Below are positions 9,182 to 28,958 of a stretch of 31,823 nucleotides of DNA, in pieces (the first letter of the stretch is position 1; the number at the start of each line of letters is the position of its first letter). The notes under the pieces were generated by a model. It was given only the letters and a program-made list of their open reading frames with translations. It was not told where the DNA came from and made no database searches. Source of the stretch: a virus; the IMG/VR virus record IMGVR_UViG_3300037488_002365, positions 1 to 31,823 of that record; one strand, written 5' to 3'. The position numbers were made by a program, and so were the translations under genes.

Positions 9182-12100
9182 TATGAAAAACTCCCTGGTG
9201 GACAGAAATTAAGTATGTCTTCAATTGCTTTTTTATTAGCTTTATTAAAGTCTTTGATTACATTTGCCGTAGCTTCTTTAAGTTTTTGAGCTTTAGCCTT
9301 AGGCATTGCTTTTTCTAAAACTTTATTAGCTTCTCTAATAGCTCCTTCTGGTGTCATTTTACCAAATCTGTAATAGGCTTGAATCATTTGTCCGCCTTCT
9401 GTAGCCTTTCTGGCTAAAGCATCTTCAAGCTCAGCCGCTTCATCTAATAAACCTTCTGACTCATATTTTCTCACTAATTCATAACCAGTAGCCACTTCTT
9501 CATCTGTCCAGTTGCTTTCTTTCCTAGATTTCATTCTAATTTCTTTGGCTAAGCTTTCAGAATCTTGAGTTTTGACTCTTTCAGTAGCCCTATCAAACAA
9601 ATCATTACTATTTCTTGTTTCATAAGTAGTATCTTTGCGAAATTCCTTAGTTTCTTGTTTGAAATTAGGATTTTCATCAATTGTTTGAATTAAACCTCTT
9701 TCTTTGGTTTCACCAGTTAAATTATCTGGTTTATTGATTAAATCACTTTTGGGTGCTTCTGGAACTTTTGCCTCAATAGCTGGAGTTTCTGCTTTAAATT
9801 TAGGAGCTTCAGGAACTTTAGAAACTTTTGCTTCAGTGCCTAGCATTTCATCATAGATTTTTCTCATCTTGTTATTGAGTTTTAAATCTATTTCTGAGCC
9901 TGTAATGCCTTTGTAAATATCTACCAACCAGTCTTTAAAATCATCAAATATTTGTTTTAATTCTGGAATTGGTGCTTTTCCTTCACTTAAATATCTCTCA
10001 AATCCTCTAGCAAATTTTTCGCTTGCGTTAGTATCCCATTCTTTACTACCAGCCCAATCTAAAATTTTAGTTCTTTCACTTTTGGTTAAAACTTCTTCGT
10101 AAACATGGGCTATTTCGTGTAATGGAGTGGAAACATTAGGATCGGTTAAAGCGTGAATAACTTTCTTTCCACTTTCAAGCGTTTCCATTGCTCCTTTTTC
10201 ATTTTGGAACTTAGTATTTTCGCCTCCCTTCCTTTTTTTTTGAAACAAATCATTCCATTTTTCTTCTTGGCTTTTGATTTCAGCATGATTTAACTCTTTG
10301 TATTTCGCTTCATACAAATCTGTCTTTTCTGAAGCCAACTTTTTAAAACCGTCCCACTGACCACTTTTGACAAAACTTGAAATTGCCTGATCTGTTGGTT
10401 TGTGAGTTATAAAAGCAATTTGGCCATCACTATTGACCCACAAATCATCTTTAGCTTGTAAAAAACCCTTCTTTCTTAAAAAAGTGGGCGTATATGTAGC
10501 ACCTGGTATATGATCGCTTACTCTTAATTGAACATCAGGATTAGAGACCCACTGACCGCTTTTATCCATATAGCCACCCCTCAAATTTTCAAGAGGTTTA
10601 CCATTCGCATCTCCCAAAACATAATAATTACTTCGGCTTTTACTGGTGTCGTTTTTACCTCGACTTGCAGATTTAATACGACTTATAATTGTAAAAGAAT
10701 CACCTTTCAGCTTTGCACTGCGTTGGTCGTGAGGGATTTCTTGTTCTAATTCTGGGTGGTAACTAGCTTCATCAAATCTTTCTTTTCTTTCAATTAAATC
10801 TTCCTTGTCATAGCCAAGTTCTTCTCTGACTTCGTCTTCAGTTTGACTTCTTGTTTTTTTTAATTCTTCTATTTTTTTTGGTTGAAAGCCGACATCTTGT
10901 TTGATCCTGTTTTGCTGTTTTGTATAATCTAAAAATTCATTCTGGAATCTTTCTTTTCGTGGCACTCCGTGAAATCTTTTACTAAGTTCCCCCATTATCT
11001 GGTTAACTTTTCTTCCGCTTTCCCAGAGTTTTTTTACATCATCTAAACTGCCAGTTTTTACAATTTCAATATCAGAAGGAGTTAAATCTTGTCTTTGTAA
11101 ATCACCCTGAAACTTAGCCCCTTTGCCCACTTCATTTAAATTACTCTTCTTAAAACCAACTTCACTATAAGCCGCTTCTTTTGTAATTCCTTTACGCCTT
11201 GCTATTGTGTCAAATATTCTGTCAGTTACAACCGCCGCCGCTTTACCTTTAGGTTCATCAAGTCCAAAAGTGGTTTTGTATGTTTGTTCTAGTTCGGTTT
11301 GGTTTTTAGGGTTTTCAGTAGCCTTTTTAGCTTGAACTGGCTCTTTCACTATTTCACCCAGTTTTTTCGTGTAAGAATCGAAATATTCGCCTTCAACACC
11401 CATTAAATCTGAATGTTCCTCTCCGACTTTCTCTAATTCTTCATAAGTCTTTGCATTATTTAAATCATCATTAAACTTTTTATGCTTGTAAGCCGCTTCA
11501 CCATCAAACTCATCAAGAAATTTATTAGCTTGAATATCATCTAAAAATTCACTAGCAACGCCATCAACACTAGTTCCGCCCGATCTAATATCATTAGCCG
11601 CTTTAGCACTTGCAATTTTATTTTTATAAGTATCTTTTAAACCACTTACTGAATAAGGTGGTGGAACATCTTTTAAACTTATCCGAACATTGCCAAGTTG
11701 AGCAAATTTATCACCCTTTTTATTGCTTTTAATTTCAAATCCTAATTCTTCAAGTCCATCTCTAAGCGGTTTTTCAGCTAATTGGCTTTCATTACTTAAA
11801 ACATTTTTGTATTCAGTTCTTAATTCAGATTGAGCTTGTTTGACTTCTTTTGGTGGTCTTTGTGCCACAGCCTCATCTATTTGTTTACCACTTCCTTTTA
11901 ATCCTTCAACCTTTGGCACCTCTGGCAATGCTTTGGCACTTGGTTGTGTTAAAACAGAAGCCGACTTGTTCGGAGTCAGTACAGAAGGTACTTTATTTGC
12001 CTCGGATACCGTTTTTTGTGGCGTGCTTGGTATTTCAGCTTGGTTTATAGTTTGATTAACTTCTTTTACCGCTTGCTTGCCGATTTGAGCTTCTTGTTTG

Positions 12101-13842
12101 TATTGAGCATTTTCAGCTTTTACATTTTTTTTTAGTTTTAATAAAGCTTCTTTTTGGTTTTGAGCTTCCTGCAGTCTTTTAGCTTTTAGATCTTCTTTTA
12201 GTTTTAATAAAGCTTCTTTCTCAGCTTGTTTTATAGTTTGATTAACTTCTTTTACCGCTTGCTTGCCGATTTGAGCTTCTTGTTTGTATTGAGCATTTTC
12301 AACTTTTACGCTTTTTTGTTCTAATCTATTTAAAGCAGTTTGAAGTTGAGCCTCTTCTTTAGCCTGTTGAGTAACTGTCTTTTGGGCATTTTTAGCCTGT
12401 TGAGTAGCTGTCTTTTGGGCATTTGCAATAGTTTGATTAATATCTTTTTGGGCTTGACTGGCGGTATTTTGAGCTATTTTTGTTTTATAATTAGGCATTA
12501 AAGCTTCAACCGCTTGCCCTTGTTCTTGCATTTGTAAAGCATTTTGCAATTCTTCTATGTCAGCATTTCGAGCTTGCCTTTCACCTTGTACCGCTTGTCT
12601 TTGAGTTGTTATTTCTTCAAATTTCTTAGCACGCCCTAATTTATCAAAAGTTGGTTTTAAAGCTTTCCCTACATTGTGTATTCCTAATTCAGCCACTCCA
12701 CCCAAGCCAGCCGCTAAAGCAGTTCTTCCTAATTGATTTTGTGCCGCTTGCTCTAAAGTTTGTTCACCGCCTGCTACTTTTGCCCCTTCTTGAATTAAGC
12801 CCATTGGTTGCTCCACGATAGCGTTTTCAATAACTCCTTTAGTTAAAACTTCAACTGTTTCTTTACCGCCATATTTTGCTAAAGCTTTACCAATACCAGT
12901 TTTCATTAAAGCTTTAGCTCCGCCAGTTGCTAATTTAGCCGCCCCCGTAACTTCACCACCCGCGAAAAATGGTAAAATTTCACCCGCAAATTCTCCTGTT
13001 TTATAACCACCTTGCTGTCTCATACCTTCCGCTAATTCTTTACTTCCTAAAGTTTTATTTTGAGCGTTTTTAATGAAATTAGGGTTTTGGTAATCAGCTT
13101 TGATAGCTTGTCTTTGAATTTCTGGGGTAGCTTCTAATTGGCTTTTTCTTTTTAGTAAATCAACTCTTTGATCGGCTGAAATATCTTTATTTAAATCTTG
13201 GTTTATTTGGCTAACTTTTAAATTGTCTAAAGCTTTAATTCCTTGCCCTATAATAGGAACAGACCTAAGAGCCTGATCTTGATAAGACGCGACCGAGTCT
13301 AAACCAGTATTTAAATCTTTACCAAATTGAGCGGTTTTCTCAAGTAAGCCAGCTCCAAAAGAGATGATCGGATTAGAGAAAGTATCAATTGTTTGTTCTT
13401 GTGTATTTAAAGGCTGTCCTATTTGTTTTTTTATATCAATTTGAGCTTTTTTAACTCCAAATTGATTAATTTGTTCTGGTGCAACTCCCGTTAAAGCCCT
13501 TTCCTGTTTTTGAACAGCCTTAGCTTGAGTAGCTTGCAATAAACTTTTTTGTTTTTGTTGTGCAAGTTTTCTTAAATTTTCTTTTTCACTCTCTGAAATA
13601 TCATCAGCATTGTCCAATATTTTATTAATATTCTGAAAAGTTGAATCAGTAGTTTTTTTATATTTTTCAACTTGCTTTGGTAATTCTTTTGTAGCGTAAT
13701 TAGCTTTAAGCTCTTCAACTCGTTTAATATCATTCAAATTTACTGCTTGCGGTCTAAGTATTCCCAAATCTTGCAAAACATTATTACCTGCATTAATGGC
13801 GGGCCGAGCTTGCTTTAATAAACCTGCAAATAAGTTAGCCAT
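9181..13842 (-). CDS. Giant multidomain virion protein with zincin (HEIAH) domain, polyvalent type
   Basis: 1553 aa, the largest gene here. Regions in order: helical, charged N-terminus (1-180); Ala/Gly-rich, hydrophobic part at about 285-395 (AAQNQLGRTALAAGLGGVAE), membrane-compatible; long Gln/Lys/Ala coiled coil at about 405-610 with an internal duplication; several charged modules; a beta-rich module at about 1090-1180 containing QLRVSDHIPGA; metalloprotease motif LHEIAHVYEEV (H1242, E1243, H1246) with a nearby EKFARGFERYL helix; and a helical C-terminus ending KTGKMT-like (RFGKMTPEGAI). The HExxH plus downstream Glu fits zincin modules of phage polyvalent proteins, which are packed in the capsid and injected. 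Likely roles are ejection channel, wall or host-protein cleavage, and early takeover. It starts with a TAATG overlap and an AAAGGA SD. Confidence 0.75.
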   Translation of the reverse strand: MANLFAGLLKQARPAINAGNNVLQDLGILRPQAVNLNDIKRVEELKANYATKELPKQVEKYKKTTDSTFQNINKILDNADDISESEKENLRKLAQQKQKSLLQATQAKAVQKQERALTGVAPEQINQFGVKKAQIDIKKQIGQPLNTQEQTIDTFSNPIISFGAGLLEKTAQFGKDLNTGLDSVASYQDQALRSVPIIGQGIKALDNLKVSQINQDLNKDISADQRVDLLKRKSQLEATPEIQRQAIKADYQNPNFIKNAQNKTLGSKELAEGMRQQGGYKTGEFAGEILPFFAGGEVTGAAKLATGGAKALMKTGIGKALAKYGGKETVEVLTKGVIENAIVEQPMGLIQEGAKVAGGEQTLEQAAQNQLGRTALAAGLGGVAELGIHNVGKALKPTFDKLGRAKKFEEITTQRQAVQGERQARNADIEELQNALQMQEQGQAVEALMPNYKTKIAQNTASQAQKDINQTIANAQKTATQQAKNAQKTVTQQAKEEAQLQTALNRLEQKSVKVENAQYKQEAQIGKQAVKEVNQTIKQAEKEALLKLKEDLKAKRLQEAQNQKEALLKLKKNVKAENAQYKQEAQIGKQAVKEVNQTINQAEIPSTPQKTVSEANKVPSVLTPNKSASVLTQPSAKALPEVPKVEGLKGSGKQIDEAVAQRPPKEVKQAQSELRTEYKNVLSNESQLAEKPLRDGLEELGFEIKSNKKGDKFAQLGNVRISLKDVPPPYSVSGLKDTYKNKIASAKAANDIRSGGTSVDGVASEFLDDIQANKFLDEFDGEAAYKHKKFNDDLNNAKTYEELEKVGEEHSDLMGVEGEYFDSYTKKLGEIVKEPVQAKKATENPKNQTELEQTYKTTFGLDEPKGKAAAVVTDRIFDTIARRKGITKEAAYSEVGFKKSNLNEVGKGAKFQGDLQRQDLTPSDIEIVKTGSLDDVKKLWESGRKVNQIMGELSKRFHGVPRKERFQNEFLDYTKQQNRIKQDVGFQPKKIEELKKTRSQTEDEVREELGYDKEDLIERKERFDEASYHPELEQEIPHDQRSAKLKGDSFTIISRIKSASRGKNDTSKSRSNYYVLGDANGKPLENLRGGYMDKSGQWVSNPDVQLRVSDHIPGATYTPTFLRKKGFLQAKDDLWVNSDGQIAFITHKPTDQAISSFVKSGQWDGFKKLASEKTDLYEAKYKELNHAEIKSQEEKWNDLFQKKRKGGENTKFQNEKGAMETLESGKKVIHALTDPNVSTPLHEIAHVYEEVLTKSERTKILDWAGSKEWDTNASEKFARGFERYLSEGKAPIPELKQIFDDFKDWLVDIYKGITGSEIDLKLNNKMRKIYDEMLGTEAKVSKVPEAPKFKAETPAIEAKVPEAPKSDLINKPDNLTGETKERGLIQTIDENPNFKQETKEFRKDTTYETRNSNDLFDRATERVKTQDSESLAKEIRMKSRKESNWTDEEVATGYELVRKYESEGLLDEAAELEDALARKATEGGQMIQAYYRFGKMTPEGAIREANKVLEKAMPKAKAQKLKEATANVIKDFNKANKKAIEDILNFCPPGSFS
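12035..12309 (-). repeat. 89-bp direct repeat (two copies, 186-bp offset) in coiled-coil part of 1553-aa gene
   Basis: Copies at 12035-12123 and 12221-12309 differ at two bases (G/T at 12043 and G/A at 12115). The offset of 186 bases is 62 codons, so frame is kept. Each encodes ENAQYKQEAQIGKQAVKEVN. The spacer also holds two copies of a shorter unit coding EALLKLK. A recent duplication extended the coiled coil. Confidence 0.95.
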
Positions 13843-24619: not shown

Positions 24620-25003
24620 TTACCAAAAATGCCATCTTGGTTTTGCTTTAAGTTCTTCTTGGCTTAACAAGTTTTTAAGTTTTTCCATAGTAGAATCTAC
24701 ATCATCTGAGATAAAGAATTTTATATAGCATTTAGAATAAGGTTTATCAAAAGCAAGATAACAGTTGATAGTAGACCAATTATTTTTTGGAGCGATGTTT
24801 TCATTATAAAACTTTTGGAAACGGGCCGCTCTACGAATAAATCTTGGCTCTCGAAATCTGAAATCTGCAAGCTTAAAACAAAATTGCTCAACTGTATTTT
24901 TCCAAAATTCAAAAGTTTTTTTGCGTTCTCGAAATTCATCAAAAGTACTTTGATGTTCAAAATTATATAAACTTTCTAAACCTTTTTTTTGAATTGTTTC
25001 CAT
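24620..25003 (-). CDS. Unknown 127-aa protein between terminase and portal
   Basis: The gene starts at the base after the TerL stop (TTAGGATAA then ATG), so its translation is coupled. The sequence is rich in aromatic and basic residues (TFDEFRERKKTFEFWKNTVE, FRFREPRFIRRAARFQKFYN) and ends in a charged helix with PRWHFW. No motif is recognised. Small genes at this place in podoviruses are often packaging or head-assembly accessory proteins, but no comparison supports that here. The first residues METIQ resemble the portal's METIL. Confidence 0.65.
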   Translation of the reverse strand: METIQKKGLESLYNFEHQSTFDEFRERKKTFEFWKNTVEQFCFKLADFRFREPRFIRRAARFQKFYNENIAPKNNWSTINCYLAFDKPYSKCYIKFFISDDVDSTMEKLKNLLSQEELKAKPRWHFW

Positions 25004-27190: not shown

Positions 27191-27337
27191 TTATAACACT
27201 TCTATAATGTCATAATCTTTTGTGACATCTTTATAGTTTTGTTCAAAATCATCACCAGCATAAAAATACAATACTCGTCTGTCTAAAGTAGCAATCAAAT
27301 AGCCATATCCTATATGCCCTTTTTCATAGTTTGGCAT
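27191..27337 (-). CDS. 48-aa protein upstream of terS
   Basis: Read directly: ATG at 27337, TAA at 27191. The ATG overlaps the stop of the 78-aa gene by one base (TAATG) and ends 7 bases before terS. The sequence is aromatic-rich and strand-like (GHIGYGYLIATLDRRVLYFY) with an acidic end. Compactness, overlap and position support a real gene, but no function is visible. A role as translational link to terS is possible. Confidence 0.55.
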   Translation of the reverse strand: MPNYEKGHIGYGYLIATLDRRVLYFYAGDDFEQNYKDVTKDYDIIEVL

Positions 27338-27573
27338 TATCCTAAATTGACTCTCCATGAAGATCTGTAAGCTTTAAGAATTTTGGCTATTTTTTCTGCT
27401 GATTCGCCAGCTTTAACGGCTTTTTTTAACGCCTTGGCGGAATGCTGAAAAGTGCTAGTCATTGATATTTCGTCCCAATTTTTGCCAACAAAAAAATTAG
27501 CTAAAATTTCTATTTCTTCATTTGAAGATTTTGCTATTGAAGTTTTGTTTATGTTTTGAATTAATGTTGTCAT
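27337..27573 (-). CDS. Unknown 78-aa protein with recurrent leader
   Basis: 78 aa from ATG at 27573. The frame continues up to 27666, but a leader identical to those of three other genes (AAGAGAAAAACAAAATG) ends exactly at this ATG, so this is the start. The middle is a helix-rich domain (EEIEILANFFVGKNWDEISM, KALKKAVKAGESAEKIAKIL), like a small DNA- or protein-binding helical bundle. Function unknown. Confidence 0.65.
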   Translation of the reverse strand: MTTLIQNINKTSIAKSSNEEIEILANFFVGKNWDEISMTSTFQHSAKALKKAVKAGESAEKIAKILKAYRSSWRVNLG

Positions 27574-27600
27574 TTTGTTTTTCTCTTGTTTGTTTATAAG
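27571..27600 (-). promoter_or_regulatory. Recurrent translation leader, copy A
   Basis: CTTATAAACAAACAAGAG followed by AAAAACAAAATG on the minus strand. AAGAG is the SD, 9 bases before ATG. The same leader occurs at the ATGs at 27872, 28489 and 28856. Confidence 0.7.
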
Positions 27601-27659: not shown

Positions 27660-27872
27660 TTACCAATCAATCGAGTCTAAGCTTAATTGATTGTTTGATG
27701 GCTTTTTGAACTGAAAAAAACCTAACTGCTCTTTTTTTTCTTCTTGTTTTAAAGCTGCTGGTTTTATTCTGTAAGCAAACTTGATCGCATTCCCTAATTT
27801 TGGAAACAAGTGTTTAATTTCATGTGCTTTTTTTAAAACTTGTGAATTGTTTTTTGTAGTTAAGTTATTCAT
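27660..27872 (-). CDS. Unknown 70-aa basic protein
   Basis: The ATG at 27872 directly follows the promoter-leader repeat at 27870-27975, so the start is well supported. The protein is basic (VLKKAHEIKHLFPKLGNAIK) with an 'A..I......F...A...A..I' pattern seen in small phage and plasmid helical proteins, then a Lys/Glu stretch and a FFQFKKP motif. It is transcribed from its own candidate promoter with the 78-aa gene, the 48-aa gene and possibly the terminase genes after it. Function unknown. Confidence 0.65.
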   Translation of the reverse strand: MNNLTTKNNSQVLKKAHEIKHLFPKLGNAIKFAYRIKPAALKQEEKKEQLGFFQFKKPSNNQLSLDSIDW

Positions 27873-27975
27873 TTTGTTTTTCTCTTGTTTGATTTATAAG
27901 AATAATTTTATACTATTACTATTCACTTTGTCAATAACTTTATAACATTCTTTTTAAAAATCATACTAAAGTTTA
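27870..27975 (-). repeat. Promoter-leader repeat, copy B
   Basis: About 106 bases nearly identical to 28854-28958 (a handful of substitutions and one indel). It covers the promoter, 5' leader, SD and ATG of the 70-aa gene. See the promoter entry at 27907-27934. Confidence 0.95.
27907..27934 (-). promoter_or_regulatory. Sigma70-type promoter B: TTGACA-16-TATAAA
   Basis: Minus strand: consensus -35 TTGACA (27929-27934), 16-base spacer, -10 TATAAA (27907-27912). Transcription should begin about 25 bases before the 70-aa gene. The same elements recur in copy C, which supports function by conservation. Confidence 0.75.
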
Positions 27976-27980
27976 GGGTT

Positions 27981-28208
27981 TTATCTCTTTTTCTCAAATT
28001 CAATTACATCAGCAGGGTTGTAGTAAACAGCACCCCCTCCCCCCTCGTATTGCTTGCCCTGTAAAATTTCCCTAGCTTGCAATTTAGCTAAAGAGCTGAC
28101 AGACAGCTTTAAATAGTCAGCCGCTTGTTGTCTTGTCCATTTTCCTTCTGGTCTATTGTAGGGTAAAGCCTGTTTGGCTTGCCTTGGTTTATATTGTTTC
28201 TTTGGCAT
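27981..28208 (-). CDS. Small helix-turn-helix (MerR/excisionase-like) DNA-binding protein
   Basis: 75 aa from ATG at 28208 (MPKKQYKPRQ); an upstream TTG at 28280 would add an unlikely, His/Phe-rich extension. A basic arm (residues 2-23) precedes KWTRQQAADYLKLSVSSLAK (23-42), a helix-turn-helix of the type in small excisionases and HTH_17 regulators: 'T..QAA..L..S..S...L'. The end, AVYYNPADVIEFEKKR, matches the 'Y...DV..F' wing. It lies among early genes, so a transcription regulator or recombination directionality factor is plausible. No integrase is seen in the window. A Gly-rich loop (EGGGGAV) interrupts the wing. Confidence 0.65.
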   Translation of the reverse strand: MPKKQYKPRQAKQALPYNRPEGKWTRQQAADYLKLSVSSLAKLQAREILQGKQYEGGGGAVYYNPADVIEFEKKR

Positions 28209-28303
28209 ATTAAAAACTTCGTGAAAAGTGAAATTGTGATTGAAATTGTGTTTGTTTAAAAATATTAACAGCTTTATCAAATTCTTTACAATTTGGTTTA
28301 TTT

Positions 28304-28489
28304 TTATCCTCCCTGGTAAGTTTGTTTATTTTCTTCACACTCAAGCCTTGCTAAAGCTCCTCTTTTTTCCCAAAGTTTTAATTCTAAAAAACGCAGAATT
28401 GCTTTGGACTTAAAAAAGCCTGTAGGTTTATTTATTTTTTCTTCAATTCTCTCTATTGAAATTTTCAGATTGTGTATTTCAAATGTCAT
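28304..28489 (-). CDS. Unknown 61-aa helical protein
   Basis: The ATG at 28489 is preceded by the recurrent AAGAGAAAAACAAAATG leader. The sequence begins TFEIHNLKISIERIEEKINK and continues with a basic helix (FFKSKAILRFLELKLWEKRG) and an acidic end. The stop lies in GGGAGGATAA, whose SD has no good ATG after it. No function recognised. Composition suggests a two-helix hairpin. Confidence 0.6.
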   Translation of the reverse strand: MTFEIHNLKISIERIEEKINKPTGFFKSKAILRFLELKLWEKRGALARLECEENKQTYQGG

Positions 28490-28503
28490 TTTGTTTTTCT
28501 CTT
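28487..28503 (-). promoter_or_regulatory. Recurrent translation leader, copy D
   Basis: AAGAGAAAAACAAAATG ends at the ATG of the 61-aa gene. Unlike copies B and C, no consensus promoter precedes it, so the leader element recurs independently of the promoter. Confidence 0.7.
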
Positions 28504-28525
28504 GTTAGTTTTGTTTGTTTTGTTT

Positions 28526-28548
28526 AAGGGGTTTTTGCCCCGTTTTTT
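28526..28548. terminator. GGGG/CCCC hairpin after 97-aa gene
   Basis: GGGG (28528-28531), 6-base loop, CCCC (28538-28541), followed on the plus strand by GTTTTTT. It has a U-run only for plus-strand transcription, while the genes here are on the minus strand. The stem is only 4 GC pairs. It could weakly stop antisense transcripts or be a simple RNA structure. Confidence 0.3.
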
Positions 28549-28562
28549 AATTGCTAAATTTT

Positions 28563-28856
28563 CTAAATGCCATTTTGTATTGCTTCACGACGATTTAAAT
28601 GATTTTCTATTTTTGATATTAATTTTTTATATTTTTTTTCTGTTACTATAAAATGCTCAGTGCCGAAAGTACACACCACCCCTGCCCCCTTTACACGGTC
28701 AAATAATCTTATTTTTAAATCTCTACAATCAAAAATTTCAAAACCCTCGTCTCTTTTATTAATCAATTTAAAACCGTTAATTATTGGGGTGTTGATTAGC
28801 TGATTTCTTGTAAAACCACCTACTTTTTTTAATACCATTTTAACTTCGTCTGTCAT
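28563..28856 (-). CDS. Unknown 97-aa protein driven by promoter C
   Basis: ATG at 28856 directly follows the promoter-leader repeat. A helix (DEVKMVLKKVGGFTRNQLIN) is followed by a strand-rich core (GFKLINKRDEGFEIFDCRDL, GAGVVCTFGTEHFIVTEKKY) and a basic C-terminal helix. No known family. As the first gene after a consensus promoter, it is probably expressed early and strongly. Confidence 0.65.
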   Translation of the reverse strand: MTDEVKMVLKKVGGFTRNQLINTPIINGFKLINKRDEGFEIFDCRDLKIRLFDRVKGAGVVCTFGTEHFIVTEKKYKKLISKIENHLNRREAIQNGI

Positions 28857-28958
28857 TGTGTTTTTCTCTTGTTTGATTTATAAGAATAATCTTATATTAT
28901 TACTATTCACTTTGTCAATAACTTTATAACATTCTTTTTAAATTCATACTAAAGTTTA
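28854..28958 (-). repeat. Promoter-leader repeat, copy C
   Basis: 105 bases nearly identical to 27870-27975, ending at the ATG of the 97-aa gene, with no similarity between the genes that follow. The boundary at the ATG shows that only the control region was duplicated or kept. Confidence 0.95.
28891..28918 (-). promoter_or_regulatory. Sigma70-type promoter C: TTGACA-16-TATAAG
   Basis: Minus strand: -35 TTGACA at 28913-28918, 16-base spacer, -10 TATAAG at 28891-28896. Same layout as promoter B. Confidence 0.75.

Follow-up and report, generated by a model that had tools for sequence, protein, structure and literature searches.

The window analysed here is the entire IMG/VR record IMGVR_UViG_3300037488_002365, a metagenomic viral contig of 31,823 bases from an AT-rich, uncharacterised phage whose minus strand carries most of its genes. 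Read along that strand, replication-type genes (31.6-29.0 kb) are followed by a module of small open reading frames (ORFs; 28.9-27.2 kb) and then by the small and large terminase genes (27.2-25.0 kb), and the window further encodes portal, capsid, internal and tail proteins, an endolysin, a methylase and an RNA ligase. The annotated phage collection holds no close phage: the large terminase finds its best match, at 26%, in Flavobacterium phages, and portal and capsid have no match there. A host search with two queries against 84,980 prokaryote genomes returned no relative, and the methylase, considered as a pointer to the host, proved no guide and was set aside. Among the ORFs and families searched, no phage RNA polymerase was noticed. 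Most genes of the phage carry strong Shine-Dalgarno (SD) sequences (about -5 to -11 kcal/mol), which would fit a host that reads sigma70-type promoters. Elsewhere in the window (12035-12463), direct repeats of 97, 43 and 33 nt lie within the gene for a 1553-aa protein and encode repeated Gln/Lys/Glu-rich segments.

The small-gene module comprises five minus-strand ORFs, which encode, in order of reading, proteins of 97 aa (28563-28856), 61 aa (28304-28489), 75 aa (27981-28208), 70 aa (27660-27872) and 78 aa (27337-27573). The only match of any module ORF to a known family is a weak one of the 75-aa protein to HTH_17 in Pfam (E 0.0021, below the family cut-off), accompanied by a match to PHROG 66, excisionase and regulator (E 0.001); we treat this HTH_17-like protein as a candidate regulator. 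Searches of solved structures gave no credible relative of it, and its predicted structure, being of low confidence (mean pLDDT 60), was set aside.

Two direct copies of a unit of about 105 bp, spaced 984 bp apart, punctuate the module on the minus strand. Copy 2 (28854-28958) stands directly before the 97-aa ORF, with TTGACA as -35 at 28918-28913, a -10 read as TAAGAT (28894-28889) or TATAAG (28896-28891), a leader at 28883-28857 and the ATG at 28856. Copy 1 (27870-27975) fills the space that separates the end of the HTH gene from the ATG of the 70-aa ORF (27872), with TTGACA at 27934-27929, a -10 read as TAAAAT (27910-27905) or TATAAA (27912-27907) and a leader at 27899-27873. In a search of the phage's own genome, 27869-27958 and 28853-28942 align without gaps at 97% over 90 nt (E 2e-39); allowing a one-base gap extends the homology to TAAACTTTAGTATGA, ending at 27975, five bases past the HTH stop, and at 28958. 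The longest exact run is 45 nt, and the copies differ at several sites. Each comprises an AT-rich upstream block, an exact TTGACA followed by a -10, and a leader, and the likeness stops at the ATG, beyond which identity drops to 1-6 of 10 per block, the chance level. Alignment thus bears out the two copies and the ATG boundary proposed in a first-pass annotation of this DNA, and it confirms that the HTH, 61-aa and 97-aa genes lie between them. The genes behind the two copies are likewise unrelated, as had been claimed: the 97-aa and 70-aa ORFs have no similarity, and common descent was rejected.

The last roughly 30 nt of the full unit, probably its 5' UTR, recur twice without a promoter. These leader-only copies, overlooked in the first pass and recovered when its proposed search for further copies in the same genome was run, lie on the minus strand at 27570-27600 before the 78-aa ORF (start 27573; 97%, E 1.4e-9) and at 28486-28512 before the 61-aa ORF (start 28489; 93%, E 1.3e-6). 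In each, 21 of the 24 nt upstream of the start are shared, for the 78-aa leader with copy 1. The module presents ACAAGAGAAAAACA at four gene starts, a conserved asymmetric sequence within a few nucleotides of unrelated start codons, and of 861 pairings of gene starts the six closest are those among the four leaders. Transcription is predicted to start near 27899 and 28883, giving a 5' UTR of about 27 nt that is A-rich and unstructured. Because the leader-only copies begin at about this predicted start, the 5' UTR seems to be a separate unit, used or copied independently of the promoter. The leader may matter for translation. Its SD, CAAGAGA, pairs weakly, at -2.9 kcal/mol where most genes of this phage reach about -5 to -11: the first-pass description of a shared control unit before unrelated genes holds, but the SD that it listed among the elements was overstated. 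A second start-junction repeat, AACAGG(A/G)GGCT(A/G)A(N)TAATATG, occurs on the plus strand of the same phage at 21453-21473, 21844-21864 and 22196-22216 (0 expected by chance); it marks three consecutive gene junctions, each time running from the end of an ORF across the strong SD and ATG of the following one, and the operon concerned is a small plus-strand one set within the minus-strand structural genes.

A sister phage, IMGVR_UViG_3300044610_000369 (35,442 bases; stretches labelled L005, L012 and L013), allowed the locus to be compared between close relatives. Its terminase protein is 98% identical, with DNA identity of 97% across the terminases and 88-97% over most structural genes, and the genes flanking the module are syntenic on both sides. 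The sister has one promoter copy (L005 6515-6630), at the place of copy 2 and behind the homologue of the 101-aa gene that adjoins it in the window; it has no orthologue of copy 1. A leader-only copy (L005 6776-6806, 84%) lies 175 nt beyond its promoter. Behind the promoter no gene is common to the two phages until homology resumes at window 27328: the ORFs of this stretch encode 97, 61, 75, 70 and 78 aa in the window and 50, 87 and 68 aa in the sister. A conserved promoter followed by unshared ORFs indicates that the promoter site is old and that the genes behind it have been exchanged. Nor is the sister a simple deletion derivative, since the 70-aa and 78-aa genes behind copy 1 are missing from it as well. 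It does encode a distant HTH_17-like relative of the 75-aa protein (31%, E 2.6e-9), on the opposite strand and about 4.4 kb away. DNA similarity between the two phages also breaks between the large terminase and portal genes, where the window has a 127-aa ORF (24620-25003, minus strand) and the sister a 184-aa ORF (L005 9672-10226), another apparent gene replacement.

Within the promoter, conservation between copy 2 and the sister is strikingly uneven. The segments TATTGACA and TAAGATTATTCTTATAAATCAA, covering the -35 and the stretch from -10 to leader, are identical at all 30 of 30 positions, and the spacer between them agrees at 7 of 18; the associated Fisher p of 1e-6 is optimistic, as the block limits were chosen after seeing the alignment. 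The upstream block TAAACTnnAGTATGA is also kept in the sister, farther from the -35 there. This footprint supports a working promoter at copy 2 and points to selection at that site. The comparison rests on one relative, the third known (L015/L017, capsid 79%) being a fragment that ends short of the locus. When 2.9 million viral contigs were scanned for exact patterns of the promoter, the footprint and the leader, every hit was either the sister or a chance match; nothing credible came from phages and plasmids, where two weak Staphylococcus phage matches (42 nt, E 7e-3) appeared, and no known RNA family was found at the locus.

Both copies have the features of a sigma70-type promoter: an AT-rich upstream region and TTGACA-18-TAAAAT (copy 1) or TTGACA-18-TAAGAT (copy 2), with 11 and 10 of 12 matches, respectively. 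In the window itself the -10 is ambiguous, and the first-pass annotation, correct in its exact TTGACA, had placed it at TATAAA/TATAAG after 16 nt. We consider TAAGAT/TAAAAT at 18 nt the more likely register, because the sister reads TTGACA-17-TAAGAT and has no TATAA hexamer there. Promoter-like matches are no commoner in this AT-rich DNA than in shuffles, which leaves conservation and the exact TTGACA as the sole arguments for promoter function. A search for an operator in the window promoters was negative, the best inverted repeat being no better than those of shuffles (741-762 of 2000 as good). The sister's own -35 to -10 spacer (L005 6569-6588) is a near-perfect palindrome, ACAGGGTTTATAAACACTGT, matched by 43 of 2000 shuffles and absent from the window promoters; it is suggestive only, of a possible operator of different specificity.

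Just upstream of copy 2, where it marks the border with the 101-aa gene, lies a conserved hairpin (29028-28976, minus strand), with an outer stem GGGGT/ACCCC, an SD-like AAAGGGGTGA and no T run. It contains an ORF of 9 codons (29008-28979, MTILSLNPL), or of 13 codons. Its 5' half is identical in the sister at 30 of 30 positions, and its 3' half has changed yet still pairs; the gene adjoining it is only about 70% identical between the two. In both phages the folding beats most shuffles (z -2.3 and -2.7). As to function, the hairpin may set the module apart from the replication genes as an insulator, or it may be a regulated leader peptide.

Taken together, these observations are probably best explained by a host-sigma70-type promoter with a 5' UTR of about 27 nt that heads a hypervariable small-gene module and has been duplicated in the course of cassette turnover. 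The two copies of the window are more alike (46 of 48 positions in the promoter core) than are the orthologous copies of two close phages, a likeness that recent duplication or gene conversion would explain. Sequence comparison further suggests that copy 2 is the ancestral site and that the two lineages had already separated when copy 1 originated or was homogenised. The sister polarises two substitutions: copy 2 keeps its G in the -10, where copy 1 is derived and has the better hexamer, and before the ATG it is copy 1, not copy 2, that retains the sister's A. The strict boundary at the ATG had been read in the first pass as showing selection; a recent duplication yields the same boundary, and that argument falls. 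The first pass also called the unit early, which for a module placed between the replication genes and the terminase is a conjecture.

An old duplication, with both copies needed and kept alike by gene conversion or, as the first pass supposed, by strong selection for a single shared control unit that some phage or host factor has to recognise, would also account for the 97% identity, and both the constraint on -35, -10 and leader in the sister footprint and the reuse of the leader at two more genes agree with it. We nonetheless regard it as unlikely, since the spacer matches at 17 of 18 positions between the copies but at 7 of 18 between the phages, which fits recent copying or conversion rather than selection on promoter elements, and since the sister has a single promoter. 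With one relative covering the locus, old copies may also have been evened out by gene conversion. Alternatively the selected unit could be the RNA leader, acting as a start-associated translation signal of the SAS type (below), with the promoter carried along in one duplication. The leader-only copies that begin at about the predicted transcript start, the second, leader-only copy (84%) of the sister, the A-rich and unstructured leader and the second start-junction repeat of the same phage all lean that way; against them stand the weak SD pairing, the mere four copies, and the conservation of the upstream block and -35, which implies a constraint on the promoter itself, and we hold this reading to be very unlikely. 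That the contig was misjoined across the 105-bp repeat is scarcely credible: the contig is metagenomic and the repeat shorter than a typical read, but the copies differ at several sites, with no exact run beyond 45 nt, and the genes on both flanks are syntenic with the sister.

Under recent duplication with cassette turnover, copy 1 most likely came in at the head of a gene cassette acquired by recombination, or else arose by unequal crossing over; after either event the 97 aa-61 aa-HTH segment would be bracketed by direct repeats, and a single crossover between these could remove it again. The first-pass annotation had foreseen such recombination, and loss of the 984-bp segment leaving one hybrid promoter remains a sound expectation; the inversion that it also entertained does not, as direct repeats give deletion. 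We infer that host RNA polymerase would transcribe two tandem units with the same signals, the 97 aa-61 aa-HTH genes from copy 2 and the 70 aa-78 aa genes from copy 1, perhaps reading on into the terminase genes, so that the two sets would be co-expressed. The two promoters might drive a small anti-defence or host-takeover module, with the HTH protein at the end of the first unit repressing both of them, Aca-like, after the first minutes of infection; we rate this as distinctly unlikely, and if it is true the promoter sequence could serve as bait for such genes in this phage group. Irrespective of function, the locus offers a clean, recent example of how accessory genes are added, with promoter and 5' UTR kept and the genes behind them swapped between close relatives, and the 97-, 61-, 70- and 78-aa orphan proteins and their sister counterparts form a candidate set of co-controlled accessory genes.

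The case belongs to a broad kind, in which a shared start or promoter sequence stands before unrelated small phage genes. Start-associated sequences (SAS) and their extended form (ESAS) are described from Cluster K mycobacteriophages and Cluster EF Microbacterium phages, with the SAS consensus GGGATAGGAGCCC, an AGGAG core and 10-19 copies, to which ESAS adds 17-bp inverted repeats upstream (PMC3203893, PMC7302621). The present unit resembles them as a near-identical asymmetric sequence just before the starts of small non-structural genes that are unrelated to one another, and in that only part of the copies extend further upstream. Its sequence is CAAGAGAAAAACA, however, with a weak SD core and four copies, and the extended part is a sigma70-type promoter without the 17-bp inverted repeats; by sequence, SD core and inverted repeats it is not SAS/ESAS, though similarly placed. 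In SIRV2 and other archaeal viruses, a shared early regulatory sequence has been used to predict anti-defence genes (PMC11065993). Here too one strong promoter sequence precedes small unrelated genes (two promoters, four leaders) and the set includes an HTH-protein gene, but the promoter is of bacterial sigma70 type, has two copies only and heads a module with no known anti-defence gene. LRRHood compared with Cali, and Island3 with Brujita, provide accessory segments that are flanked by repeats in one phage and replaced by a single copy in its relative (PMC3029335), much as about 1 kb of small genes (984 bp here) lies between direct repeats in the window and a single copy stands in the sister. 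Unlike those cases, the repeat is the whole promoter-leader unit, and the sister differs also beyond the second of the two repeats, with other ORFs until window 27328. Together the three parallels cover the main features of the locus, and its particular merit is the clean comparison with the sister.
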